DNA of 64,000 bases, from NCBI RefSeq assembly GCF_010725725.1, contig NZ_AP022599.1, forward strand, positions 5,332,001 to 5,396,000, read 5' to 3'. A program made the position numbers and the translations under genes. Source of the DNA: Mycolicibacterium pulveris. Its GTDB lineage: Bacteria; Actinomycetota; Actinomycetes; Mycobacteriales; Mycobacteriaceae. Below, piece after piece: positions 3,948 through 17,110 of the stretch (its first letter is position 1; every line of letters starts with the position of its first letter). The notes under the pieces are model-generated. The model did no database searches and was not told the origin of the DNA. It was given only the letters and a program-made list of their open reading frames with translations.

Positions 3948-5018
3948 TCACCGGGCCGTTGCCCGAGGGCGGAGGGTGGTCACCAGGTGGTAGGCCATCG
4001 CGAGGAAGGTGCATCCCCACGCCGCCAGCGCGATCCAGATCTCGACGTCGCCGATCGCCCGCACGATCGGCAGGTGATCGGCCTGCCCGAGGTAGAGCGC
4101 CCCGACACCGTACATGCCCAGCGGGAACACGATGCTCCACAATGTCGGGTCGTAGCGCAACGGGATCTTGTGGACGGCGTGTCGCCAGATGCCGCCCGCG
4201 ATCAGTGGCGGAATCAGCCAGCTGCCGAACGCCCAGAACGTCACCGACGCGCCCGCGATGAGACCGCGGGTGGCGGCAACCATTGGGGCATCGGCCATCT
4301 CGACGATCCTGGCACCGGCCAGCACCGTGATGGCGGTGGCGCCCATGGCGACCCAGTAGGGCGGGGTCAGGTCGTCGGGCTCGAACGGGTACATCAGCAT
4401 CCGCACGATGACCAGCACGGCCACCACCGCGTACAGAAACACCCCCACCGACCAGGAGAAGACCGCGATCAGCGCCAATTCCCGTCGGCCAGAACCGAGT
4501 TGGGGTTGCAGCACGGCAGCCAGCACCGCGACGGACTGGCTGGCGACCACCCAGATGAACCACGCGCCGTTCGCGACGTGCAGGGTGGGGCGGAGCCGGT
4601 GCCCGAGCACCGCCGTCCACGGCACGACGTAGCCGAGGACCACCCAGGCCACCACCGCGACGACCAGCAGGATGAGCGCCGCCCGGTAGTGGGCGTCGAT
4701 GGCCAGCCGGGCACCGAGCACGTTGGTGGCCGCGACGAAGGTGAACATGCCGAATCCCCGGCGCGGGTCGGCCAGGTCGGCGGCGAAGTCCGCGCCGAAG
4801 GCGGCGATCCGCACCGCACTCAACGCGACGAGAACGCCGTAGGCGATACAGGTGAGCCACAACAGCGCCACCGAAACCGTGTCCGCGTGGTGGTACTGCA
4901 TCGCGATCGACACGATGCCGGTGGCCATCACCAGGGCGAAGTACCCGGGATGCAGGGTTCGTACGGCCTTGTGCAGCCCCGATTCCTGGGGTGTCGGCAC
5001 CGCGGTCCGTTTCGACAT
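3948..5018 (-). CDS. TDT family anion channel/transporter (TehA/SLAC1-like)
   Basis: A 356-residue integral membrane protein with about ten hydrophobic helices. The N-terminal HPGYFALVMATGIVSIA is the typical opening of the tellurite-resistance/dicarboxylate transporter (TDT) family, which also includes the plant SLAC1 anion channel that conducts nitrate and chloride. It sits 12 bases after copD in the same direction and 68 bases before narK. That position between a NirK-like enzyme and a nitrate transporter makes passage of nitrate, nitrite or another monovalent anion a reasonable guess, but the substrate is not shown by the sequence. A purine-rich GGCGGGA lies just upstream of the ATG at 5018. 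Confidence 0.82.
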   Translation of the reverse strand: MSKRTAVPTPQESGLHKAVRTLHPGYFALVMATGIVSIAMQYHHADTVSVALLWLTCIAYGVLVALSAVRIAAFGADFAADLADPRRGFGMFTFVAATNVLGARLAIDAHYRAALILLVVAVVAWVVLGYVVPWTAVLGHRLRPTLHVANGAWFIWVVASQSVAVLAAVLQPQLGSGRRELALIAVFSWSVGVFLYAVVAVLVIVRMLMYPFEPDDLTPPYWVAMGATAITVLAGARIVEMADAPMVAATRGLIAGASVTFWAFGSWLIPPLIAGGIWRHAVHKIPLRYDPTLWSIVFPLGMYGVGALYLGQADHLPIVRAIGDVEIWIALAAWGCTFLAMAYHLVTTLRPRATAR

Positions 5019-5030
5019 TTCCCGCCGACT

Positions 5031-5474
5031 CTAGCCACCCTCCACCAGCGCGGTGGCGAGAAGCACCACGCCCAGCGAGCCGATCAGCGAGGCGATCGAC
5101 GCGGTTCTGGCCGCGCTCGGTCGTCGGCGCGCCTGCGCCATACCGTGCAGGGACGCCGCGACCATCACCGCGGCGAACAACAGCACCTTCACGATGAGCA
5201 CCCGGCCGTATCCGGGTTCGGCCAGCGAGGCCCAGGTGACGCCGTGGCGGACGGCCAGCAGGATCCCGGTGGTGATCTGCACCGGCAGGAACATCGCGAA
5301 CGTGATGAGCGCGAACCGCCGTCCGACGTTGCGCAGCACCTGCGCCCGGTCGGGCACGCTGAGCAGCCGGTGGGCGGGCGGCAGCACGATCAGGGTGACC
5401 GTCAGCTGGCCACCCACCCACACGATGGCGCCGACGACATGAAGAAACCGCACCACGGTCCAGATGTCGATCAT
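5031..5474 (-). CDS. CopD-like copper-associated membrane protein, 147 aa
   Basis: A small protein with four predicted membrane helices. The first helix carries FLHVVGAIVWVGG, a His-containing motif typical of CopD-domain proteins, which are linked with copper uptake into the periplasm and membrane. The ATG at 5474 overlaps the stop of the upstream cupredoxin enzyme by 4 bases (ATGA), so translation is probably coupled. A longer open frame extends upstream but lies inside the cupredoxin gene and is not real. Function inferred from context: it may supply copper to, or form a membrane partner of, the NirK-like protein. Confidence 0.8.
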   Translation of the reverse strand: MIDIWTVVRFLHVVGAIVWVGGQLTVTLIVLPPAHRLLSVPDRAQVLRNVGRRFALITFAMFLPVQITTGILLAVRHGVTWASLAEPGYGRVLIVKVLLFAAVMVAASLHGMAQARRRPSAARTASIASLIGSLGVVLLATALVEGG

Positions 5475-6847
5475 GGCCGGTCCGTCACCTCGATGACACC
5501 GTGCGCGCCGCCCTCGGCGTGGCGCATGTCGTGATCGACGAACGGGTAGTGGCCGGCCTCGGGGAAGCTCAGCTCGATGAAGCCGCCTTGGGCGGGCGCC
5601 AGATCCAGCACCTGCGCGCCGCCGGAGCGGGCGTCGGGACGGAGCGCCCAGGCGCCTTCGCGGTAGACGGTGTCGAACTGGCCGCCGACGACGTGGAACG
5701 CGGTGCTGTCGCCCGGCCCGGCATTGACCACCCAGATCCGGACCCGCTCGCCGGTGTGCGCCCGCAGCGGCGCGTGGTCGTACTGAGCCGCCATGCCGTT
5801 GAACATCCAGCCGTCGGGTCGGTCGGCGTTGATCTTGTCGACCTGTTCCTGTCCGCCCGGCTCGCCGAGATAGAGCTGGGCGGACACCAGCGCGTACTCC
5901 CGATCCACCTCGGGCAGCCCGGGCGGGTCGATGATCACCGCGCCGTACATGCCGTTGGCGATGTGCTGCGACATCGGCATCGTGCTGCAGTGATACAGCC
6001 ATGCGCCGGCACGGTGCGCGGTGAACCGGTAGACGAGCCGCTCACCCGGATCGATGGTGCGCATCGGTTCGTCGGGTGCCAGGGCGCCGGCATGAAAGTC
6101 GATGCCGTGGCCCATCTCGGTGTCGTTGATCAACGTGATCTCGAACCGGTCGCCCACCCGGCCGCGAAGCGTGGGCCCGGGCGCAGAGCCGGCGAACGTC
6201 CACCGGTGCTCGCGGCGCCCCGGCGCGACCTCCAGTTCCCTGTCGACGGCGCGCAGTTCGACGCGGTGCACACCGCCCTCCGCGGGTGCCAGCGTCGCGT
6301 CGCGCGCCACCCATCCCGGCGACGGGTCGGCCGCCAGATCCAGCCGGTCGGGCACGCCGACCGCGTCCTGGGCCGTGTCATGGTCCGCGGCGTGGCGGTG
6401 TGCACCCTGGACCCGGATCGACATGGTCATCCCCGCGGCGCGGTGACCCGCCACCGCGCACCACGCCTCGCGATCGGTGTAGACCGGCCCGACGTCCAGG
6501 AGCGCGGTCTGCCCGCGGCGCAGGCGGGGGGTGCGTTCACCGCTGTCGAGCTGCAGGTCGTGCACCATCGCCTCACGGTTGGTCACCCGCAGCACCAACC
6601 GGGTGCCCTCGGGCACCTCGACGACGTCCGGGCGCACCCGCATCTCGTCGAGCTCGACGTCGACGGTGAGCACCTCGCCGGACTCCGGCGCAGGGGCGGT
6701 GGCCTGCTGCCCGGTCTGCTGCCCGGTGCCGGCCGCCACCGCGGCGAGCACGACGGCGACCACACCGATGAGGACACCCAACGCGGTGCCGGGAATTCGC
6801 AACACAAGATCAGATAACGCAGCGGGCGTCATGCCCGGTAGGGACAT
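5471..6847 (-). CDS. Membrane-anchored three-cupredoxin copper nitrite reductase-like protein
   Basis: A 458-residue protein. Residues 20-40 form one membrane helix, followed by a cupredoxin domain (about 58-147) with type 1 copper ligands His96, Cys130, His135 and Met140. Two further cupredoxin domains (about 195-458) match NirK: type 1 ligands His247, Cys287, His295 and Met300; type 2 ligands His252, His286 and His385; catalytic Asp250 (HGIDFH) and His358 (YDHAPL). NirK reduces nitrite to nitric oxide. The extra N-terminal cupredoxin could act as a tethered electron donor, as known for Hyphomicrobium NirK. GGAAGGGGA precedes the ATG at 6847. It overlaps copD by 4 bases. A generic multicopper oxidase is less likely because the ligand set fits NirK. 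Confidence 0.85.
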   Translation of the reverse strand: MSLPGMTPAALSDLVLRIPGTALGVLIGVVAVVLAAVAAGTGQQTGQQATAPAPESGEVLTVDVELDEMRVRPDVVEVPEGTRLVLRVTNREAMVHDLQLDSGERTPRLRRGQTALLDVGPVYTDREAWCAVAGHRAAGMTMSIRVQGAHRHAADHDTAQDAVGVPDRLDLAADPSPGWVARDATLAPAEGGVHRVELRAVDRELEVAPGRREHRWTFAGSAPGPTLRGRVGDRFEITLINDTEMGHGIDFHAGALAPDEPMRTIDPGERLVYRFTAHRAGAWLYHCSTMPMSQHIANGMYGAVIIDPPGLPEVDREYALVSAQLYLGEPGGQEQVDKINADRPDGWMFNGMAAQYDHAPLRAHTGERVRIWVVNAGPGDSTAFHVVGGQFDTVYREGAWALRPDARSGGAQVLDLAPAQGGFIELSFPEAGHYPFVDHDMRHAEGGAHGVIEVTDRP

Positions 6848-6933
6848 TGGTCCCCTTCCGCGACGACTGCAGCCCCTAGCGCGTCACCGCCTGCTGGGCC
6901 ATGCTCGCAGCGAGCAGGAGGAGATGATTTCCC

Positions 6934-8022
6934 GTGCGGTCGCGATTCGCCGTGATGTCGGTTGCCCTGCTGGTCACAGGAATGGTCGCGGCGTGCGCCG
7001 ACGGCACCGGCGACAGCGCCGAGCGCACCGAACCGGGTCCGGTGACCGGCGCCGTGTGGGTCGCCAACGAGGGTGCGGACAGCCTCAGCGTCGTCGATGC
7101 GGCCACCGACGCCGTCGTCAGCACGCTCGAAGGCATCCAGTCGCCGCACAACGTCCAGTTGGGTTCCGATGGCGACATCGCCTACGCGGTGAGCGGCAGC
7201 ACCAACAGGGTCGTCGCCATCGACACCGCCACGTACGCGGTCCACGCGTTCGCCGACACCGGGCCGGGCCCCGCGCATGTGATCGAGGCGCCCAACGGCA
7301 AGGTGTATGTCACCAACGCCGCAGACGGCACGGTATCGGTCTATCAGGCCGCGGCGTTGACGCCGGTCACCACTATTGACCTCGGCGGCATGCCGCACGG
7401 GCTGCGGGCGGCGGCAGACGGTTCGGTGATCGTGGTGGCCAACACCATGGCAGGCAGGCTCGATCTGATCGATCCGGCGACCGACGCGCTGCGGGGGTCC
7501 GTGCCGGTGGGCACCGAACCGCTACAGGTCGCGGTCACCGCCGACGGCAAGTACGCCTACAGCAGTGTCAGCGAGCCCCCGACGGTGGTCAAGGTCGACC
7601 TCGCGACGCAAAAGGTCGTGGGCAGCACCGACGTTCCCAGCCCGCCGGTGCAGCTGTATCTGACGCCGGACGAGGGCTTGGTGGTGAGCGCCAACCAGGG
7701 AACCGCCGAAGCGCCCGGCCGTACCGTGTCGGTGATCGACACCGAGGCGATGACGCCGCGGGGCACGGTCGACGCGGGATCCGGGCCGCACGGCGTGGTG
7801 ATCGACGACTCGGCGACGCGGGCGTGGGTGACCAACACCTTTGATGACACGGTGTCGGCGATCGACCTGGATGAGCTGTCGGTGCCGGCCACCATCGCGG
7901 TCGGCCATGAACCCAACGGGATCAGCTATTCGCCCCGACCGCCCGCCGCGGACGCCCCCGTCACCACGACGTTGAATCTGCCCGCGCCGGAACACCAGTC
8001 AGCACACGGGCACGGCCACTAG
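6934..8022 (+). CDS. YVTN-type beta-propeller lipoprotein with His-rich tail
   Basis: A 362-residue exported protein. The GTG at 6934 follows a strong AGGAGGAG. The signal peptide ends in MVAAC (Cys21), a lipobox. The rest is a series of about seven blades with repeated V-V-(D)-(T/P)-A-T and P-(H/N)-G elements, as in YVTN/NHL propellers. The C-terminus ends HQSAHGHGH, a plausible metal-binding tail. It is divergent from the NirK-like gene, with 86 bases between their starts, and its stop overlaps the stop of the flavoprotein gene on the other strand by 3 bases. A role in copper or heme delivery, or as a periplasmic electron-transfer partner, is possible but unproven. Confidence 0.78.
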   Translation: MRSRFAVMSVALLVTGMVAACADGTGDSAERTEPGPVTGAVWVANEGADSLSVVDAATDAVVSTLEGIQSPHNVQLGSDGDIAYAVSGSTNRVVAIDTATYAVHAFADTGPGPAHVIEAPNGKVYVTNAADGTVSVYQAAALTPVTTIDLGGMPHGLRAAADGSVIVVANTMAGRLDLIDPATDALRGSVPVGTEPLQVAVTADGKYAYSSVSEPPTVVKVDLATQKVVGSTDVPSPPVQLYLTPDEGLVVSANQGTAEAPGRTVSVIDTEAMTPRGTVDAGSGPHGVVIDDSATRAWVTNTFDDTVSAIDLDELSVPATIAVGHEPNGISYSPRPPAADAPVTTTLNLPAPEHQSAHGHGH

Positions 8023-10700
8023 GTCAACGTCAACGCTCGCCGCGCGTATGCGCGCACGTCGGCATCGCTGTCGTCCAACGCCTGGCCGAGCGCGTCGCGC
8101 GCGGCCGGTTCTGAGGCCGCCCAGCGCGTCAAGCTCAGCACGGCGGCCTTGCGCACATCGAGGTGCCGGTCGGCCAGTGCCCGCGACAGCGCGGGCACGG
8201 CGACCGTGGGCGACGCACCCGCAAGCGCCTTGGCCGCGCCCTCCCGCACCTGCCAGGCGGGCTCCTCCAGCGCGAGTCGCACTTCGGGGACATCGCCGTC
8301 GCCGCATCCGATGGCTCCCAACGCCGCCAGCGCAGCCGCCCGGACCAGCGGGTCGGCGTCGGCGAGAAGCGCACGAACGGTGTCGGCGCCGGCGCGCAGG
8401 GTCGCCAGGCCCTTTGCGACCGCAATGCGGACCTCACGGTTGTCATCGAGGGCGGCGGCGCTCACACCGTCCACATCGTCGACGGATACCACAGCGCGTA
8501 CCGCTTCGATGCGGACCCGGTGATCGGTGTCATGAAGCGCCTGCCGGTACTGGCCGGGCTCGCCAGCCCTGCAGGACGCGAGCACATGCACCGCTGCCGC
8601 GCGCACGACAGCATCGGGCGAATGCAGGTGCTTGGCAAGGTTTTCCGGATCAGGAAGGACCTCGACGAGCTCACGCACCCCGGCGGCCGCCTCCCGTCGC
8701 ACCTCGGGGTCGTCGTCGCCGAGCGCGGTCAGCAGAGCCGACCCGTAACCCTCGGGCAGATGCTCGGTCAGGGTGCGCACGGCCGTTCGCCGGACGTCGC
8801 GATCCGGGTCGGTCAAGAAGTCGAGCAGGTCCCTCAGCATCGGAGACTCCAACGCCAGCACCGCGGCGATCCGCGGCGACGGCGGCGGCCCCGACGGTGC
8901 ACGCACCCTGGTGGTGGTCGCGGCGGGCGCGCGCCCCACAGCGGAAAGCGGCTGCTGCACGGCTGCCGCGGCCGCGTCCGACGGAAGGTGCTCGAACTCG
9001 GGCACCGGGACGAAATACGGCGCTACCGGCCGCTTCAGAAACGCCATCGTGCCGTCGGCCGCCTTGTGCAGGTTGAGGTGGTAGCGCCAGTTCTGGTCGT
9101 CGCGCTCGGGAAGATCCGCCCGGTCGTGATAGAGCCCCCACCTCGACTCGGTGCGGGTCAGTGACGAACGGGCGGCCATCTCGGCGCAGTCCCTGATGAA
9201 CGACACCTCGACTGCGCGCATCAGCTCGTGTGGTGTCCGCGCGCCCATCTCCGCGATCTCGGAGCGCATCCTCTCGAACGTCGCGACGGCGATCGACAAC
9301 TTCGACGCCGTCTTCGGCGGTGCCACATAATCGTTGACGAAGCGGCGCAGCTTGTATTCGACCTGGGGCTGCGGCGGGCCGTCGGGATGGCGCAGCGGAC
9401 GGTAGATGAGCTCGTGGGCCTCGTTGAGCTGATCGCGCGGCAGGGTCCGCGGTGCGGTCACACCGGGCAGCGTCGACGCCGCGTGCGCGCCGGCGAGATC
9501 GCCGTAGACGAACGCGCCGATCATGTAGTTGTGCGGCACGCAGGCCAGGTCACCGGCCGCGTAAAGTCCCGGCACGGTGGTGCGGGCGTGTTCGTCGACC
9601 CAAACCCCGGAGGCCGAATGCCCGCTGCACAGCCCGATCTCGGAGATGTGCATCTCCACGTCGTGGGTGCGATAGTCGTGTCCGCGGTTGGCGTGAAACG
9701 TCCCGCGAGTGGGCCGTTCGGTGGTGTGCAGGATGTTCTCCAATGCCGTCACCGTCTCGTCGGGCAGGTGCGAGACCTTCAGATAGATTGGCCCGCGGGC
9801 GGATTCGATCTCCCGCTTCACCTCGGCCATCATCTGGCCCGACCAGTAGTCTGAGTCGACGAACCGCTCCCCCAACGCGTTCACTTGGTAGCCGCCGAAC
9901 GGGTTGGCCACGTACGCGCAAGCAGGCCCGTTGTAGTCCTTGATCAACGGGTTCACCTGGAAGCACTCGATGCCGGACAGTTCGGCGCCGGCGTAATAGG
10001 CCATCGAGTATCCGTCGCCGGCGTTGGTCGGGTTCTCGTACGTGCCGTACAGATAGCCCGAGGCGGGCAGGCCCAGTCGCCCGCACGCTCCGGTGGCCAG
10101 GATCACCGCCTTGGCCGCGACGGCGACGAATTCCCCGGTGCGAGTGTTGAACGCGGCGGCGCCGACGGCCCTCCCGGTGTCGGCGGTGAGCACCCGCACC
10201 GGCATCAACCGGTTCTCGATGCGGATCCTCTCACGCATCGAGCGTTGCCGCAGCACGCGGTAGAGGGCCTTCTTGACGTCCTTGCCCTCCGGCATCGGCA
10301 GCACGTACGAACCCGACCGGTGGACCCGGCGCACGGCGTATTCGCCGTGCTCGTCCTTCTCGAACTTGACCCCGTAGCGTTCCAGCCGCTGCACCATCGC
10401 GAAACCACGCGTCGCGGTCTGATACACGGTGCGCTGATTGACGATTCCGTCGTTGGCGCGGGTGATCTCGGCTACGTAGTCCTCGGGGGTGGCTTTGCCG
10501 GGGATGACGGCGTTGTTCACTCCGTCCATTCCCATCGCCAACGCACCGGAATGCCGCACGTGCGCCTTTTCCAGCAGTAACACCTGCGCGCCGTGCTCGG
10601 CGGCGGTGAGCGCAGCCATGGTGCCCGCGGTGCCGCCGCCGATCACCAGCACGTCGCAGTCGAGCCGGATGGTGTCATCGAGGGAAGGTATCTGCATCAT
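8019..10700 (-). CDS. AprA/FrdA-like FAD oxidoreductase fused to C-terminal HEAT repeats
   Basis: An 893-residue protein. Residues 15-30 hold the FAD dinucleotide fold (VLVIGGGTAGTMAA), and the flavoprotein domain runs to about 560. The FAD C-terminal signature TTVPGLYAAGDLACVPHNYM and the NPLIKDYNGP region look closer to adenylylsulfate reductase alpha than to succinate dehydrogenase. After a Pro/Ala-rich linker (about 595-620) come roughly eight HEAT-like units, each containing DxDxxVRxxA-type turns, up to residue 893. The ATG at 10700 overlaps the ATPase stop by 4 bases. The partner is probably the two-cluster ferredoxin at 13777-14004. Reaction unknown: an organosulfur or related oxyanion redox step is my inference from the AprAB resemblance and the Tau/Ssu-type transporter. 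Confidence 0.85.
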   Translation of the reverse strand: MMQIPSLDDTIRLDCDVLVIGGGTAGTMAALTAAEHGAQVLLLEKAHVRHSGALAMGMDGVNNAVIPGKATPEDYVAEITRANDGIVNQRTVYQTATRGFAMVQRLERYGVKFEKDEHGEYAVRRVHRSGSYVLPMPEGKDVKKALYRVLRQRSMRERIRIENRLMPVRVLTADTGRAVGAAAFNTRTGEFVAVAAKAVILATGACGRLGLPASGYLYGTYENPTNAGDGYSMAYYAGAELSGIECFQVNPLIKDYNGPACAYVANPFGGYQVNALGERFVDSDYWSGQMMAEVKREIESARGPIYLKVSHLPDETVTALENILHTTERPTRGTFHANRGHDYRTHDVEMHISEIGLCSGHSASGVWVDEHARTTVPGLYAAGDLACVPHNYMIGAFVYGDLAGAHAASTLPGVTAPRTLPRDQLNEAHELIYRPLRHPDGPPQPQVEYKLRRFVNDYVAPPKTASKLSIAVATFERMRSEIAEMGARTPHELMRAVEVSFIRDCAEMAARSSLTRTESRWGLYHDRADLPERDDQNWRYHLNLHKAADGTMAFLKRPVAPYFVPVPEFEHLPSDAAAAAVQQPLSAVGRAPAATTTRVRAPSGPPPSPRIAAVLALESPMLRDLLDFLTDPDRDVRRTAVRTLTEHLPEGYGSALLTALGDDDPEVRREAAAGVRELVEVLPDPENLAKHLHSPDAVVRAAAVHVLASCRAGEPGQYRQALHDTDHRVRIEAVRAVVSVDDVDGVSAAALDDNREVRIAVAKGLATLRAGADTVRALLADADPLVRAAALAALGAIGCGDGDVPEVRLALEEPAWQVREGAAKALAGASPTVAVPALSRALADRHLDVRKAAVLSLTRWAASEPAARDALGQALDDSDADVRAYARRALTLT

Positions 10701-11455
10701 GAGTTGTTCAGGGCTGCAATGATTTCTGTGCGTAAAGCACCGCGGTCCACGGTCGTGGAGCGCGGCTCGGCCACCTCGAGCAGAGCGCGCAACGGCTGGC
10801 CGACCCGACCGAGCACCGCCACCCGGTCGCCGAGGATCAACGCCTCGTCGACGTCGTGGGTGACGAACACGATGGTCGTCGGGTGGGCGCACCAGGTGTC
10901 GATCAGCAGGCGCTGCATGGCGGCCCGCGTCTGGGTGTCCAACGCGGCGAACGGTTCGTCCATCATCACCGCGCGCGGCGCGCCGGCAAGCCCCCGCGCC
11001 AGCTGCACCCGTTGGCGCATTCCGCCCGACAGGCTCTTGGGCAGGTAGTCCGCGTATCCACTCAGCCCGACCTCGTCGATCCAGCGTTCGGCGCGCTCAC
11101 GTCGGCCTCCACGGGGTGTCCCGCGCAGTGCGAGCGCCAATTCGATGTTGGATCGCACCGATCGCCACGGCAACAGCGCGCTGTCCTGGAACACCATTCC
11201 GCGGTCGCGCGAGGTGGTGGTGACCTCGGCCCCGTCGGCGAGCACCCGGCCGGCGGCGGGTGCCAGCAGACCGGCCAGGGCACGCAGCACGGTGGACTTG
11301 CCGCACCCGGACGGCCCGGTCAGCACCAGGATTTCGCCCGGCTGGACGGTCAGGCGTAAGCCGTCGACGACCGGCACACCGGTGTAGGACAACCGCACGT
11401 CGTCGAGTTCGAGCCGCATACCTTGCACCGAAGTGGGCGCTGCCGTGGCGGTCAT
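10697..11455 (-). CDS. ABC transporter ATPase, nitrate/sulfonate/taurine (TauB/SsuB) type
   Basis: A 252-residue nucleotide-binding subunit. Walker A is GPSGCGKST, the signature is LSGGMRQRVQLARGL, and Walker B is AVMMDEPFAALD, followed by the switch His in VFVTHDVDEA. The Q-loop reads VFQDSALLPW, typical of the TauB/SsuB/NrtD group. It powers import through the adjacent permease. The ATG at 11455 overlaps the permease stop by 4 bases and its own stop overlaps the flavoprotein start by 4 bases, so the three are translationally coupled. Confidence 0.93.
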   Translation of the reverse strand: MTATAAPTSVQGMRLELDDVRLSYTGVPVVDGLRLTVQPGEILVLTGPSGCGKSTVLRALAGLLAPAAGRVLADGAEVTTTSRDRGMVFQDSALLPWRSVRSNIELALALRGTPRGGRRERAERWIDEVGLSGYADYLPKSLSGGMRQRVQLARGLAGAPRAVMMDEPFAALDTQTRAAMQRLLIDTWCAHPTTIVFVTHDVDEALILGDRVAVLGRVGQPLRALLEVAEPRSTTVDRGALRTEIIAALNNS

Positions 11456-12339
11456 CGCCCGTTCTCCTCGCCGCGCGGCAACCAGCGGGTAGCGCGTCGC
11501 CCGATGAGTTCGACCGCGGCCGCGGTGGCGAAACCGAGCACGCCGATCGTGATGATGCCGACGAACACGTCGGCGTAGTTCAGCACGGTGTACGCCTGCC
11601 AGGTGCGGTACCCGACACCGAGCTGGCCCGAGATCATCTCCGCCGAGATCACACAGATCCAGGCCACTCCCATGCCGACCGAGAGCCCGCCGAAGAGCCC
11701 CGGCAGGATGCCCGGCAACACCACGCGGCCCAACACGTCCCACCGGTTTCCGCCCAGTGTGCGCACCGAGTCCTCCCATATCGTCGGCAACGCGCGAACG
11801 GCGTGGCGGGTGCTGACCATGATCGGGAAATATGCCGCCAGGAACGTGATGAACACGATCCCGGCTTCATCGGTGGGAAACAACAGGATGGCCACCGGAA
11901 CCATCGCGATCGCCGGGATCGGGCGCGCCAGTTCGGTCAACGGGCCGAACACATCGGAGAACACCTTGGAGCGGCCCAGCATGATGCCGGTGACGACACC
12001 GACGGCCGCTGCCAGTCCGAACCCGGTCAGGATGCGGATCAGTGACTGCCCGAGGTCCAGCCAGTACTCCTGGCCGCCGATGCGGTTCACCAACGTCGCG
12101 GCGACTTCGGTGACGGTGGGCAGGGTGTCGAAGCGCAGAAACAACCGAATGTCGTTGGCTGTCAACAGCTGCCATAACCCGACGGCGGCCAGCACCGAGG
12201 TCAGCCGGATCCCCCTGCGGCGCCATTGCGTTGCTCTGCCTTCCCGGCGGACCGTCGGCAGGTCCGATGCCGGCGCCTCGACAACGGTGCCCGGCCGGTC
12301 AGGAACCAGTTGCGCGCTGGTTGCGTCGGCAGTTGTCAC
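11452..12339 (-). CDS. ABC transporter permease, TauC/SsuC type
   Basis: A 295-residue inner-membrane subunit with about six helices after a 45-residue cytoplasmic N-terminus. The EAA loop that contacts the ATPase is visible near residue 195 (DSVRTLGGNRWDVLGRVVLP). This architecture belongs to the BPD_transp_1 group used for nitrate, sulfonate, taurine and related small organic anions. It overlaps the binding-protein stop and the ATPase start by 4 bases each. The substrate cannot be told from the permease. Confidence 0.92.
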   Translation of the reverse strand: MTTADATSAQLVPDRPGTVVEAPASDLPTVRREGRATQWRRRGIRLTSVLAAVGLWQLLTANDIRLFLRFDTLPTVTEVAATLVNRIGGQEYWLDLGQSLIRILTGFGLAAAVGVVTGIMLGRSKVFSDVFGPLTELARPIPAIAMVPVAILLFPTDEAGIVFITFLAAYFPIMVSTRHAVRALPTIWEDSVRTLGGNRWDVLGRVVLPGILPGLFGGLSVGMGVAWICVISAEMISGQLGVGYRTWQAYTVLNYADVFVGIITIGVLGFATAAAVELIGRRATRWLPRGEENGR

Positions 12340-13766
12340 GCCGCGCCCTCCAGTGCCCGCTGGTAGTCGACGGCGGCCGTACCCGGATGGGCGTCGATGA
12401 ACCGCTGGGCGCCCGCCGGGGTGGCGAAGGGCAGGAAGGTCTGGCCGTCACGCACCCAGATGGCCTTGTCCGCGAACCACCGGGTGCCGAACTCGGTGTC
12501 GGCGACGTAGGCCGCGCGCACGGTCGCACCGCGTGCGGTGGCCTCGCGGACCGCCTTCAGAAGGCAGGTCGGGTTGGCGGCCGGCTGGGTGGTGTCGGCA
12601 CCGTCCAGCCACAACTCGCCGGCCTGGGCCGGGTCGGCCACCGGGGCGTCGCAGACCGGGTCGGCGCCGCTGATCACCGACGGGTTCGCGGTCGATGACA
12701 CCGCCAGGTCGTAGTCGCGGCCGCGCTCCTGGAACGCGTTGCGAAGCGGCGCGTCCTCGACGAAGCCTGCGACGTCGAGCTCGGCGAAGTCGCCGATCGA
12801 CTTGAGATAGGGCACATCGCCTTCGAGCGCTTCCACCAGCGACGGCTTGAGCGTGGTGTCGAACGATGTGCCGCCGGGGCCGTTGTAGAGGTACACCACC
12901 TCCTGCGGCAGGCCGCTGGCCTCGGCGACGATGCGCGCGGCCGCCAACGGTTCGGAGTTCAGGTAGTCCGTGGCGTCCAGTTGGGCTTGCAGAAACGCGT
13001 CGAGCACCTCGGGATGCTCGGCGGCGTACGCCCGGCGGACCACCACTCCGTGCAACGTCGGGTAGTTCAGTTCTGCCCCGTCGTACAGCAGCTTCGCCTT
13101 GTCCTGGTACACCAGCAGTCCGGGCCACGCGACGAACTGGGAAAGGGCCTGTACCTGGCCGGATTCCAGCGCGGACGCACCAACCTGGGGCTGCTGATTG
13201 AGCACCTCGACACCGGTGTTCGGGTCGATGCCCGCCTGCGAGAGCGCCCGTACCAGCGTTCCGTGGCCGGCCGAGCCGACGCTGGCTGAGATCTTCTGCC
13301 CGTCGAGGTCGGCCAGCGTCTGCGCCGGCGAACCAGGGGCCACCACAACCATGTTCAACGCACCCTTGGGGTGATACCCGGTGACCGCCACGATCTCGGT
13401 TCGGGCGCGTTCGTTGGACTGGGTCCGAGAGCCGTTGATGAGCATCGGGTAGTCGCCCATCGAACCGATGTCGATCTTCCCGGCCACCATCTGCGCGGTG
13501 ATGGGCGCCCCGGTGTCGTAATCCTGCCATGTCACCTTGTACCGGGTCCCGGTGCGTGAGGTGATATCGGCGAGCCGCCGTTCCAGATAGCCCTGCGCAC
13601 GCAGCAGAGTGCCTGCGGTGACGGTGTTGATGGTCTTGGATTGGTAGCCGATGACGACGTCGACGACGTCGCCTGACGAGCTCGATCCGGCGTCGAGCGA
13701 GCAACTCGATGCAACCAAGGTGAGCCCGGCGGCCAGCGCCGCGAGGCGCAGAGACGGTCTGGTCAT
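12336..13766 (-). CDS. Substrate-binding lipoprotein fused to a C-terminal NosL-like domain
   Basis: A 476-residue exported protein. A signal peptide ends at Cys22 (VASSC) for lipid attachment. Residues about 35-365 are a SsuA/TauA-type periplasmic binding protein (for example IDIGSMGDYPMLINGS and LNMVVVAPGSPAQTL). Residues about 372-470 are additional and resemble NosL, the copper(I)-binding accessory protein of nitrous oxide reductase: Cys372, a PTCLLKAV segment with Cys401, then YVADTEFGTRWFADKAIWV and the PFATPAGAQRFIDAHPG block that matches the conserved NosL C-terminus. A plain binding protein of this class is only about 330-350 residues. It may bind a copper-containing or copper-requiring ligand; that is inference. 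Confidence 0.8.
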   Translation of the reverse strand: MTRPSLRLAALAAGLTLVASSCSLDAGSSSSGDVVDVVIGYQSKTINTVTAGTLLRAQGYLERRLADITSRTGTRYKVTWQDYDTGAPITAQMVAGKIDIGSMGDYPMLINGSRTQSNERARTEIVAVTGYHPKGALNMVVVAPGSPAQTLADLDGQKISASVGSAGHGTLVRALSQAGIDPNTGVEVLNQQPQVGASALESGQVQALSQFVAWPGLLVYQDKAKLLYDGAELNYPTLHGVVVRRAYAAEHPEVLDAFLQAQLDATDYLNSEPLAAARIVAEASGLPQEVVYLYNGPGGTSFDTTLKPSLVEALEGDVPYLKSIGDFAELDVAGFVEDAPLRNAFQERGRDYDLAVSSTANPSVISGADPVCDAPVADPAQAGELWLDGADTTQPAANPTCLLKAVREATARGATVRAAYVADTEFGTRWFADKAIWVRDGQTFLPFATPAGAQRFIDAHPGTAAVDYQRALEGAA

Positions 13767-13776
13767 GTGAATGTCC

Positions 13777-14004
13777 TCAACGAATCAGGTACGGCATGTT
13801 GACGGTGACGGCGCCGGTGGGACAGCGGGCTGCGCACGGCCCGCAGTACCAACACTCGTCGACATGCATGTACGCCTTCCCGTTGTCGGGGTTGATCGCC
13901 AGGGAGTCCAGCGGGCAGATGTCCACGCACAGGGTGCAGCCGGTGATGCACAAAGATTCGTCGATCGTCACCGGCACATCGGCACGTTGGTTGACCAGCG
14001 TCAT
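13777..14004 (-). CDS. Two-[4Fe-4S] ferredoxin, AprB-like
   Basis: A 75-residue protein with eight cluster cysteines: Cys19, 23, 26, 30 and Cys51, 54, 57, 61. The second half contains VDECWYCGPCAARCPTGAV, very like the beta subunit of adenylylsulfate reductase. It should carry electrons to or from the flavoprotein encoded four genes downstream. The ATG at 14004 overlaps the GntR stop by 4 bases, and ten bases separate it from the binding-protein start. It has no signal peptide, so the redox chemistry is cytoplasmic. Confidence 0.9.
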   Translation of the reverse strand: MTLVNQRADVPVTIDESLCITGCTLCVDICPLDSLAINPDNGKAYMHVDECWYCGPCAARCPTGAVTVNMPYLIR

Positions 14005-14744
14005 GGGATGCTCCTGATAAGGCTGCCGCGCATGGTGATTCGGTCACCGCGCATGCGGATGTATTCGAGGTCGACGGGCCGGCCGTCGTCGAGGCTGGTG
14101 AGTCGTTCCAACATGAGCAGTGCCGCACCGGTGGGCACCTGAAGTGTCGCCGCCGAATGCGGATCTGCCGAAACAGCTTCCAGCGCCAGGGTGGCCGAAC
14201 CCAGACGCTGACCGGAGACCTGTTCGATGAGCGAGAACACGTCGTTGTGCTCCAGCGGATGCCGCAACACTTCGGCGCCGATGTCGGGGGCCAGATAGGT
14301 CTGATCCAGCGACAGCGGCAGATCGCTCACGTAGCGCAGTCGTTCGACGAACACGACGCTCTCTCCAGGCTGCAATCGCAGACGGCGGGCCACCGCAGGC
14401 GGTGCGGCCAGGTGTGCGACCGTGCGAACCTGGTTGTGGACTTCGCCGTAATCCTTGAACGTCTCCTGCAGCCCGACGAGCCGGTCGAGTCCGTGGTCAT
14501 ACTTGCGGACCGCGACATGGGTGCCCACTTTGGGTCCACGCTCGATCAGCCCCTCGTTCTTGAGCGTGGCCAGCGCCTCACGAATCGTGTTGCGGGACAC
14601 GAAGAACTCCGCGGCCAGATCTTGTTCGCCGGGCAGTCCTCCTGCGTAACCGCCCGCGTGGATCTGGTGTCGCAGAACGTCGGCGACCTGGCGGGCCCGG
14701 TCCGCGCGAGGCCGCCGGATCGGCGTCGGCTCGGATTGGGGCAT
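14001..14744 (-). CDS. GntR-family regulator, HutC/UTRA subfamily
   Basis: A 247-residue transcription factor. The winged helix (about 15-80) includes LPGEQDLAAEFFVSRNTIRE and a GLIERGPKVGTHV wing. The C-terminal part (about 95-245) is a UTRA ligand-binding domain with typical VVFVERLRYVSDLPLSLDQ. It is the first gene of the ABC/ferredoxin/flavoprotein operon and overlaps the ferredoxin by 4 bases, so it very likely senses the imported compound or its product and controls its own operon. A short palindrome, AGTGCACT at 14757-14764, lies 12 bases before the start and could be part of the operator. Confidence 0.9.
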   Translation of the reverse strand: MPQSEPTPIRRPRADRARQVADVLRHQIHAGGYAGGLPGEQDLAAEFFVSRNTIREALATLKNEGLIERGPKVGTHVAVRKYDHGLDRLVGLQETFKDYGEVHNQVRTVAHLAAPPAVARRLRLQPGESVVFVERLRYVSDLPLSLDQTYLAPDIGAEVLRHPLEHNDVFSLIEQVSGQRLGSATLALEAVSADPHSAATLQVPTGAALLMLERLTSLDDGRPVDLEYIRMRGDRITMRGSLIRSIP

Positions 14745-14851
14745 GCGGACACGGTAAGTGCACTGGTGACCGTCTCGCAGCGCGCGCAGGTGCCGGTCGG
14801 GCTAGGTTAACTCATTGCGCCGCTGCGATTTCGCCGCGACCAGGTCAAAGG

Positions 14852-14887
14852 TGCGGCATCGAGCCGCATTACGCCACCTACGGTGGC
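14852..14887. terminator. Two adjacent small hairpins between nusB and the GntR operon
   Basis: Two perfect 6-bp inverted repeats lie side by side: TGCGGC/GCCGCA with a 5-base loop (14852-14868) and GCCACC/GGTGGC with a 3-base loop (14873-14887). They fall after the nusB stop and before the GntR promoter region. No U-tract follows, which is common for mycobacterial terminators. The remaining bases of this 206-base gap hold nothing else I can name. Confidence 0.4.
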
Positions 14888-14950
14888 CCGAGATTTAACA
14901 ATCGCGGTGAGCGAAATCCCCGCGCGGACCCGTGACGAGCGGGCGGCCCG

Positions 14951-15448
14951 CTACTCCGCGTCGCCGTCCCCGTCGCCGTCGCTGTTGTCGCGCACGGCCT
15001 GCGCGGCGGCGCGGATCTGCGGGGTCACGAGCATCACCTGGCCCAGCACGCCGTTGATGAAACCCGGTGAGTCGTCGGTGGATAGCCGCTTGGCGAGTTC
15101 GACGGCCTCGTCGACGGCCACCGGTTCGGGAACGTCGTCGGCGTGCAGCAGTTCCCACACGGCCACCCGCAGGATCGCGCGGTCCACGGCGGGTAGCCGG
15201 TCCAGCGTCCAGCCCTGTAGATGCGCCGAGATCAAATCGTCGATGTGTGCGGCGTGCTCGGTGACTCCGTACGCCACCTTCACCGTGTACGGGTTGAGTG
15301 GCGCGACATCGGATTGTTTGTCTGCCAGGGCATTTCGCGCATCGGCCGCCTCGGCAGGGGTGATCTTTCTGGCTTCGGCCTCGAACAGCAGGTCTACGGC
15401 GCGTTTGCGGGCCTGATGGCGGCCACGGTCGGGCCGACGATCAGGCAT
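14951..15448 (-). CDS. nusB: Transcription antitermination protein NusB
   Basis: A 165-residue all-helical RNA-binding protein that, with NusE, acts at boxA in rRNA operons. The N-terminal [17 protein letters not shown] and the C-terminal [13 protein letters not shown] motif are diagnostic. It is somewhat longer than the usual 140-160 residues because of an acidic [10 protein letters not shown] tail. The ATG at 15448 lies inside the end of efp (8-base overlap), forming the conserved pepQ-efp-nusB operon. Confidence 0.97.
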
Positions 15449-16004
15449 TCACCCTTCCTAGGTAACTGCCGTCGCGGGTATCGATCTTGAGCTTGTCGCC
15501 GGTGTTGATGAACAACGGCACCTGGATCTCGGCGCCGGTTTCGACGGTGGCCGGCTTGGTGCCCGCGCTGGAGCGATCGCCCTGCAGCCCGGGCTCGGTG
15601 TGGGTGACCTCGAGTTCCACCGTGACCGGCAGCTCGAGGTACAGCGCCGTGCCATCGTGGAAGGCGATCTGCACCGGCATGCTCTCCAGCAGGAACTCGG
15701 CGGCGTCGCCGACCATCGACTCGGGCAGCGGGTGCTGCTCGTAGTCCTCGGCGTCCATGAACACGAAATCGGTGCCGTCGCGGTAGAGGTAGGTCGCATC
15801 GCGCCGGTCCACCGTGGCGGTTTCGACCTTCACCCCCGCGTTGTAGGTCTTGTCGACCGTCTTGCCCGACACCACGTTCTTCAGCTTGGTCCGCACGAAC
15901 GCCGGGCCCTTGCCGGGTTTGACGTGCTGGAACTCGACGATCTGCCACAGTTGGCCGTCGATCACCAGCACGAGGCCGTTCTTGAAGTCTGCAGTCGTTG
16001 CCAC
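15441..16004 (-). CDS. efp: Translation elongation factor P
   Basis: EF-P relieves ribosome stalling at polyproline stretches. The GTG start at 16004 gives 187 residues, the normal length; upstream in-frame codons belong to pepQ and are not used. The KOW-like domain I contains the loop [12 protein letters not shown] with the tip lysine, and the C-terminal OB domain ends in [19 protein letters not shown]. It lies 17 bases after pepQ and overlaps nusB by 8 bases. Confidence 0.97.
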
Positions 16005-16021
16005 GGTCGGTTGTTCTCCTG

Positions 16022-17110
16022 TCAGAGGATCGCCAGTTCCTTGGGGAACCGGGTGAGCAAGTCGGGTGTGCCCGATTCGCCAACGACCAGCGTGTCCTCG
16101 ATGCGGACGCCACCACGGTCGGGCAGATAGACACCGGGCTCCACGGTTACCACAGAGCCAGCAAGCAGTGTACCGGCGGACGCGGCACCGATTCCGGGCG
16201 CTTCGTGGATCTGCAGCCCCACCCCGTGGCCGAGGCCGTGACCGAAGTTGTCCGCATGGCCGGCGTCGGCGATGACCTGCCGTGCCGCGGCGTCGACGTC
16301 GCGCAACGGGGTGCCGGGGACCAGCGCCTCGCGCCCGGCGCGCTGCGCCGCGGCGACCAGCGCGTAGATGTCGCGCTGCCACTGCGCGACCGGCGCCAGC
16401 ACAAAGGTGCGCGTCATGTCGGAGTGGTAGCCGCTGACCAGGGCGCCGAAGTCGATCTTGACGAAGTCGCCGGCGGCCAGCACCGCGTCGGTGGGCCGGT
16501 GATGCGGGATCGCCGAGTTCGGGCCGGCGGCCACGATGGTCTCGAACGACGGGCCGTCGGCGCCGTGATCGAGCATCAGCGCCTCCAGCTCGCGGCGCAC
16601 CTCCTTTTCCGTGCGCCCCGGCCGCAGCCCGCCGCGCTCGACGAGCTCGGCCAGCGCGGCGTCGGCCGCCTCGCAGGCCAGCCGCAGCACCGCGACCTCG
16701 CCGGCGTCCTTGACCTCGCGCAGCGCCTCCACCGTGCCCGCGGCGCGCACCAGCTCGACGTTCTCACCTGCCGCTTTGGCCAGCGCGGTGTGCCCGTCGA
16801 CCGTCACCACGTGGCTTTCGAAACCCAGCCGTCGCACCCCGTCCGCGGCGGCCCGCCCCGCCAGGTGCGGCGCGCAGGCCCGCTCGATGACGATTTCGGC
16901 GTCGGGGACCTGCGCGGCCGCCTGGGTGCGGTAGCGCCCGTCGGTGGCCAGCACCGGTGTGTCGTCGTCGGCCCGGACCAGCAGCGCCGCGTTGGATCCG
17001 GTGAACCCGCTCAGGTAGCGCACGTTGACCAGACTCGAAACCAGCATGGCGTCGAGATCGGCGGCGGCAAGCCGCTCGCGCAACCGCGCCCTGCGCTGTG
17101 AAATAGTCAC
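16022..17110 (-). CDS. pepQ: Xaa-Pro dipeptidase/aminopeptidase, M24 family
   Basis: A 362-residue creatinase-fold metallopeptidase that cleaves peptides with proline in the second position. The five metal ligands are visible: two Asp in [17 protein letters not shown], His in [14 protein letters not shown], Glu in VTVEPGVY and Glu in [11 protein letters not shown]. The N-terminal creatinase domain covers about residues 1-130. It starts with GTG at 17110 and is first in the pepQ-efp-nusB operon. A divergent gene starts 33 bases away. Confidence 0.95.

Follow-up and report, generated by a model that had tools for sequence, protein, structure and literature searches.

What does a bacterium gain from an operon that joins an importer of the Tau/Ssu type to a redox pair resembling AprAB, the adenosine 5'-phosphosulfate (APS) reductase? 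The question is raised by six genes on the minus strand at positions 8019 to 14744 of a 64,000-nucleotide stretch of Mycolicibacterium pulveris DNA (contig NZ_AP022599.1, positions 5,332,001 to 5,396,000), referred to here as the window, which encode a GntR-family regulator, a ferredoxin, a binding lipoprotein, a permease, an ATPase and a flavoprotein with HEAT repeats. The gene set is a real, patchy, widely spread and misnamed module. We tentatively read it as a sulfur-scavenging module that would import an organosulfur anion and release sulfite from it by means of the AprAB-like enzyme, a reading to which we give slightly less than an even chance.

Gene content, conservation and spread

All six reading frames lie where the preliminary description of the window had placed them. 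The first gene encodes a regulator with a UTRA ligand domain (HutC/PhnF-like; 14001..14744; PF00392, 1.2e-15; PF07702, 4.9e-31) and is followed by those for a 75-residue 2x[4Fe-4S] ferredoxin resembling the AprB core (13777..14004), a binding lipoprotein of 476 residues (12336..13766), a TauC/SsuC/NtrB-type permease of an ATP-binding cassette (ABC) importer (11452..12339; PF00528, 6e-19; TIGR01183, 122 bits, below cut-off), its TauB-type ATPase (10697..11455; PF00005, 7e-32; PRK11248, 198 bits, below cut-off) and the 893-residue flavoprotein (8019..10700). Neighbouring genes overlap by 4 bp, except that the ferredoxin and binding protein genes are separated by 10 bases. Domains were assigned by Pfam and NCBIfam profile searches, which also bear out the fusion of the AprA-like flavin adenine dinucleotide (FAD) part (residues 1 to about 570) to C-terminal HEAT repeats (about 615-893). 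The host genome is assembled as one contig of 5.48 Mb and encodes no other close copy of the flavoprotein (self-match 1998 bits, next match 69).

A genome scan returned at least 598 stretches, 581 of them (likewise a lower bound) encoding a flavoprotein relative at E <= 1e-3. Among the best 80 of these relatives, whose fetched stretches carry labels such as L012 or L068, all six genes are present with order and strand unchanged in 74, so that the gene set of the preliminary description does recur in other genomes. Five of the six incomplete sets (L012, L024, L029, L044 and L087) lie at contig ends, and the sixth, L043, is on a 4.3-kb contig on which the ferredoxin gene directly precedes the flavoprotein gene with no transporter genes between, through either rearrangement or an assembly fault. 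By eye, two of the 74 complete loci contain insertions: L058 carries a TnpB-like gene, and L056 (2134-6917) a second Tau-type importer, an asparaginase-like gene and an M20 peptidase-like gene inside the operon. Together with the amidase and GNAT genes annotated at L100 and L105, the latter insertion hints at amide-bearing substrates. The module is patchy, as it occurs in 12 of 396 Actinomycetota genomes drawn (own genome included), that is in 3 of 236 genera, and in 3 of 11 genomes comprising near relatives and the host itself; gene order was identical in all eight regions fetched from the 12 positive genomes.

Of the 188 records found by a plasmid search, 13 had 60-80% identity, and the weaker ones may include other flavoproteins. 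We read 20 plasmid loci, one from Tsukamurella (L097) and 19 non-actinobacterial ones (L098-L116), the latter, most of them annotated, hand-picked from 50 of the 188 records and including one near-duplicate pair (L099 and L111). They span Cyanobacteria, Alpha-, Beta- and Gammaproteobacteria and Acidithiobacillia; L102 is a plasmid of Acinetobacter baumannii. By annotation, the flavoprotein gene has a ferredoxin gene and a stand-alone HEAT-repeat gene in its vicinity in all 19, and a binding protein/permease/ATPase triplet of the same type lies nearby in 16 (the exceptions being L100, L103 and L104), with homology checked for L098-L111 (11 of 14 with the triplet) and annotation alone used for L112-L116. 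The fusion of flavoprotein and HEAT repeats thus persists within the Actinobacteria but gives way to two genes in all 19 of these loci, a Rosetta-stone case from which the HEAT protein is probably a working partner of the flavoprotein. A gene for a GBBH-like_N (DUF971) protein occurs in 11 of the 19 loci and one for an Mrp ATPase in four, which suggests help with iron-sulfur maturation; small GBBH-like_N proteins adjoin the module at, for example, L107 (8673-8960) and L102 (15060-15341).

The redox pair

The flavoprotein is by score a member of two NCBIfam families, NF010374 (PRK13800; 1723.5 bits, cut-off 1196) and NF006131 (PRK08275; 881 bits, cut-off 587), and falls under the cut-off of the aprA family TIGR02061 (135 against 641.75 bits). 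The flavoprotein already belongs to a named family, NF010374/PRK13800, but under a generic fumarate-reductase name. Over the N-terminal 570 residues the window protein shares 56-62% identity with the non-actinobacterial members. When a profile of 25 sequences was compared with solved structures, the alpha subunit of 3'-phosphoadenosine 5'-phosphosulfate (PAPS) reductase (8a8o_A) scored highest with 282 bits, ahead of AprA with 197 and SdhA with 133; an AlphaFold model of the flavoprotein, with a predicted local distance difference test score of 62.5, was too poor for use.

Residues are numbered here after Archaeoglobus fulgidus AprA, in which we take N74, R265, H398 and E141 to be active-site or substrate residues, and after Escherichia coli SdhA, whose His242 and Arg286 are presumably catalytic. 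Asn62 of the operon's enzyme is invariant and aligned with N74 of AprA, and His361, also invariant, is aligned with the histidine of the GGH motif of PAPS reductase (8a8o), the H398 stretch of AprA lying outside the alignment. In the profile alignments the position of Glu141 is variable and that of Trp234 is Tyr221. The position of SdhA His242 is occupied by an invariant Asn250 and that of Arg286 varies among N, S and G, and fumarate/succinate chemistry was rejected on these grounds.

The eight cysteines of the ferredoxin and its Trp52, located inside the second cluster motif (DECWYC), are invariant in 25 of 25 aligned sequences, and the protein matches AprB and the beta subunit of PAPS reductase at 33-41 bits (3gyx_B, 8a8o_C and 1jnr_B). 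An FAD subunit of the fumarate-reductase superfamily and a dicluster ferredoxin are encoded together, as in AprAB and PAPS reductase. The likeness to AprAB that was first noticed is borne out by both subunits. By these alignments the two proteins make up a pair of the AprAB type whose pocket has been rebuilt, and which is neither a succinate dehydrogenase nor a demonstrated APS or PAPS reductase.

The importer and its NosL-like tail

The assignment of the importer to the Tau/Ssu type is upheld by the TauB-type ATPase and TauC/SsuC/NtrB-type permease profiles and by the binding protein, whose core (about residues 34-345) has the SsuA/TauA fold with SsuA as its best match both by profile and by structure. 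It remains below the curated cut-offs for SsuA (TIGR01728, 135.1 against 163.5 bits) and TauA (TIGR01729, 78.2 against 304.25 bits). The structure comparison barely covered the degenerate tail (about residues 372-476). The NosL homology ascribed to this tail is visible at E <= 0.01 with PF05573 in 8 of 21 homologues (best E 1.3e-6), but it is weak in the window's own protein, where the match (E 0.0064, 17.3 bits) stays under the gathering score of 24.

Sulfur genes around the module

But which anion would be imported? The earlier suggestion was an organosulfur or a copper-linked one, and the gene neighbourhoods give the organosulfur anion the best support. A sulfur gene is annotated in 11 of the 19 non-actinobacterial plasmid loci: TauE/SafE genes no more than a few kb away from the module in L098, L099, L108, L111 and L114, YeiH or sulfate-exporter types in L098, L099 and L111, a TSUP transporter in L102, annotated sulfonate-binding proteins with metX in L100, a DmoA-family gene with an NrtA/SsuA-type binding protein in L101, sulfate and sulfonate transporters with TauD in L109, MsnO8 with an LLM gene in L115, and 3-mercaptopropionate dioxygenase with rhodanese in L116. 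None of these categories is represented among the 170 annotated features of four 50-kb control stretches, which come from four of these plasmids.

We also searched 89 actinobacterial loci by tblastn with sulfur genes from other loci; most gave no sulfur gene, six were followed up, and weak matches in L047, L058, L064-L066, L070 and L120 were left aside. L068 encodes SfnG (630 bits, cut-off 383) and SfnB (465 bits, cut-off 431), both lying some 6-9 kb downstream of the flavoprotein gene, this SfnG being the sole copy over the cut-off in its genome. DmoA-family genes over the cut-off are found in L033, L059 and L067, together with MsnO8 in L059. L061 and L083 have YeiH-like genes below the cut-off, and such a match occurs in six of seven genomes, in none of them over the cut-off. 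In Salmonella, resistance to sulfite is driven mainly by YeiH (PMC12880088).

Genes that could supply electrons are found as well: L112 has fdxA and a ferredoxin-NADP reductase gene after the ATPase gene, and L103 has fdxA after the HEAT gene, neighbours which would suit a flow from NADPH through ferredoxin to FAD. The host itself carries genes of the NIR_SIR family of siroheme reductase type.

Regulation

Regulators vary among the module loci and are of the GntR, the Crp/Fnr or, in cyanobacteria, the LysR type. The cyanobacterial LysR proteins (L098 6307-8343, L099 6673-8673 and L111 6658-8673) end in an SsuA-like domain homologous to the binding protein of the transporter, with Pfam support for L098, as if a captured binding protein sensed the cargo.

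Upstream of gntR the window holds a pair of GGCGYAAT sites on the minus strand (14814..14875). Their starts are separated by 54 nt, a C(A/T)GGT box intervenes, and no such pair arose in 100 shuffles. The comparison of upstream regions covered the window and 46 of the 74 gntR-bearing loci. The sites usually start 53 or 54 nt apart, with 63 or 64 nt, one helical turn more, in L082 and L086 and 94 nt in L066. The form GGCG[CT]A[AG][TC] is present at least once in 38 of these 47 regions, twice in 23 and not at all in nine; among 4211 background windows, 210 have at least one site and three have two. With a gap of 44-47, the paired element is found at one place in the own genome and at one place in each of 12 of 19 other genomes; the other seven have none, and a reversed control gave 0. 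By coordinates, all 13 occurrences are upstream of the operon. In 27 of the upstream regions, chosen mostly for their GGCGYAAT sites and aligned, the T, the A and the last T of a TANNNT box are nearly invariant. In the window this putative -10 box (TACCGT, 14751..14756, minus strand) lies 7 nt ahead of the gntR start, which suggests a leaderless or nearly leaderless transcript. Since the paired element precedes the likely -10 box we read it as a DNA site; an RNA leader was set aside on this ground and because no Rfam family reaches its gathering threshold in 7000-16500, covariation not having been analysed. A simple search for palindromes that might serve the GntR protein as operator returned GC-rich noise only. 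The paired element most likely forms an operator array belonging to the operon itself, through which the GntR/UTRA protein probably controls the operon.

Discussion

How might the parts work together? By its likeness to SsuA/TauA, the binding protein with its permease and ATPase would import a small sulfonate-like anion. In the cytoplasm the two-subunit enzyme, related to APS and PAPS reductases, would receive electrons via its ferredoxin, and its FAD would attack the sulfonyl sulfur so that sulfite is released. A comparable attack of FAD N5 on sulfur, leading to an FAD-sulfite adduct, is proposed for APS and PAPS reductases (PMC10322725). The sulfite would then be assimilated by a sulfite reductase or removed by exporters, and the HEAT repeats may act as a scaffold or maturation factor. 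We further raise, as a possible but doubtful extension, that this is a third general sulfur route in aerobes beside oxygenases (SsuD, TauD) and C-S lyases, in which an AprAB-derived flavin/iron-sulfur enzyme with a rebuilt pocket releases sulfite from organosulfonates or S-/N-sulfonates by an oxygen-independent, ferredoxin-driven reduction and is fed by a dedicated importer that carries a NosL-like accessory domain.

Several findings weigh against sulfur scavenging. In the enzyme, the position of Gln145, an APS-contact residue of AprA according to the same source (PMC10322725), is taken by Val133 and that of Arg265 by Leu252, both invariant in 25 of 25 sequences; the pocket is thus unlike that of APS and PAPS reductases, and the enzyme need not follow their chemistry. 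That source also describes Trp42 as the electron-transfer tryptophan in the ferredoxin subunit of the PAPS reductase of Methanothermococcus thermolithotrophicus, MtPAPSR (PMC10322725); a match of Trp52 to it was seen in no alignment, and the best PDB matches of the ferredoxin are polyferredoxins, which rank above AprB and the PAPS reductase beta subunit. The TauA structure matched by the binding protein had 2-aminoethylphosphonate bound, and the best NCBIfam match of the GntR protein is to PhnF of phosphonate metabolism (TIGR02325, 106.5 bits, cut-off 156.8). Eight of the 19 plasmid loci (L103-L107, L110, L112 and L113) have no counted sulfur gene, the categories were fixed after the loci had been seen, L100 owes its place in the count solely to metX and to proteins annotated as sulfonate-binding, and the two counted loci L099 and L111 are near-duplicates. 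Sulfur genes were confirmed in only six of the 89 actinobacterial loci, where matches to the DmoA family are common (2-15 per genome in seven genomes); the TauE, DmoA and LLM families are broad, and the mycobacterial operons lie, by eye, among housekeeping-looking genes. The fdxA and ferredoxin-NADP reductase neighbours are compatible with either direction of electron flow, and the host's match to the sulfite reductase family TIGR02042 is 120 bits, far under the cut-off of 731.5. Finally, a shared sulfur regulon was rejected: the paired element was found only ahead of the operon and so does not tie it to other sulfur genes of the genome.

The alternative that survives best, unlikely as we consider it, is that the enzyme works in the oxidative direction, dehydrogenating an imported sulfonate, or an anion like it, at the carbon chain and passing the electrons out via the ferredoxin, with C-S cleavage taking place elsewhere. 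The flavoprotein does fall within the succinate dehydrogenase/fumarate reductase superfamily, and the reductase and FdxA encoded in L112 could accept electrons too, but the replacement of the catalytic histidine and arginine of SdhA argues against it, as do the TauE/SafE genes close to the module in five loci. It seems rather improbable that the cargo is free of sulfur, namely a phosphonate, a nitrate-like or another small anion, and that the sulfur neighbours are incidental: SsuA leads the matches of the binding protein, the 200 kb of control DNA lack the sulfur genes seen in the plasmid loci, and SfnG and SfnB accompany the module in L068. Still less probable is that the operon provides another path of sulfate assimilation, with the enzyme acting as an APS or PAPS reductase next to an importer. 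These reductases are the closest solved relatives of the FAD subunit; however, Val133 and Leu252 are invariant, the importer is SsuA-like, and the annotation of the 19 plasmid stretches lists neither ATP sulfurylase nor APS kinase.

The copper link of the preliminary description, a copper-linked conversion by the redox pair with the tail handling extracellular copper, is not supported and very improbable: the tail is homologous to NosL, its H460 is kept almost without exception in 40 actinobacterial sequences and CopD-like (below gathering score), multicopper oxidase and YNCE-type beta-propeller genes adjoin the operon (5034-8022), but in 21 sequences drawn from several phyla the tail has no invariant or nearly invariant Cys, His or Met, the residues which we take to be the Cu(I) ligands of NosL, and among 108 other fetched loci the oxidase has no match and the propeller gene one (L013, 34% identity), the CopD-like gene not having been searched for. 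The propeller and flavoprotein genes are convergent and their ends overlap by 4 nt. Further along (3948-5018, minus strand) lies a gene of the SLAC1/TDT anion transporter family (PF03595, 5e-44), which includes fungal sulfite pumps; it has no match in the 108 loci.

Taken together, sulfur scavenging remains our preferred reading. The module is present in Actinomycetota, Cyanobacteriota, Alpha-, Beta- and Gammaproteobacteria and Acidithiobacillia, while databases name its enzyme for a reaction that the residues do not support. A literature search, outside which most subscription papers and preprints lay, found no paper describing the module, and a search aimed at the active-site residues of AprA likewise returned no paper; the sole mention of PRK13800 located is in a paper on mycorrhizal fungi. 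The module may be an undescribed bacterial means of scavenging sulfur. If sulfite is indeed released reductively, aerobic sulfur scavenging would gain a desulfonation route that needs no oxygen, and it would become clear how the APS reductase scaffold has been recruited for a new substrate.

Comparison with known systems

The flavoprotein's two families carry the name 'fumarate reductase/succinate dehydrogenase flavoprotein subunit', to which it belongs by score but not by its active-site residues. Different from SsuABC and TauABC, whose curated cut-offs it does not reach, the importer has a binding protein with an extra NosL-like tail, and the operon contains no SsuD or TauD oxygenase. Dissimilatory AprAB (2fja, 1jnr and 3gyx) shares the two-subunit layout, and both of its subunits match significantly; however, the equivalents of Arg265, Gln145 and Glu141 are absent from the operon's flavoprotein, AprB has 150-166 residues as compared to the 75 of the ferredoxin, and the pair encoded in the operon is combined with an ABC importer. 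The closest solved relative of the FAD subunit is that of MtPAPSR (8a8o, alpha and beta), which likewise combines an FAD subunit with a 2x[4Fe-4S] ferredoxin-like subunit and whose asparagine and GGH-type histidine are kept in the operon's enzyme. The arginine of its ALRVKD motif, on the other hand, is replaced by Leu252, its PAPS-binding loop is not kept, and the operon adds a fused or adjacent HEAT protein and an ABC importer to the common redox pair.
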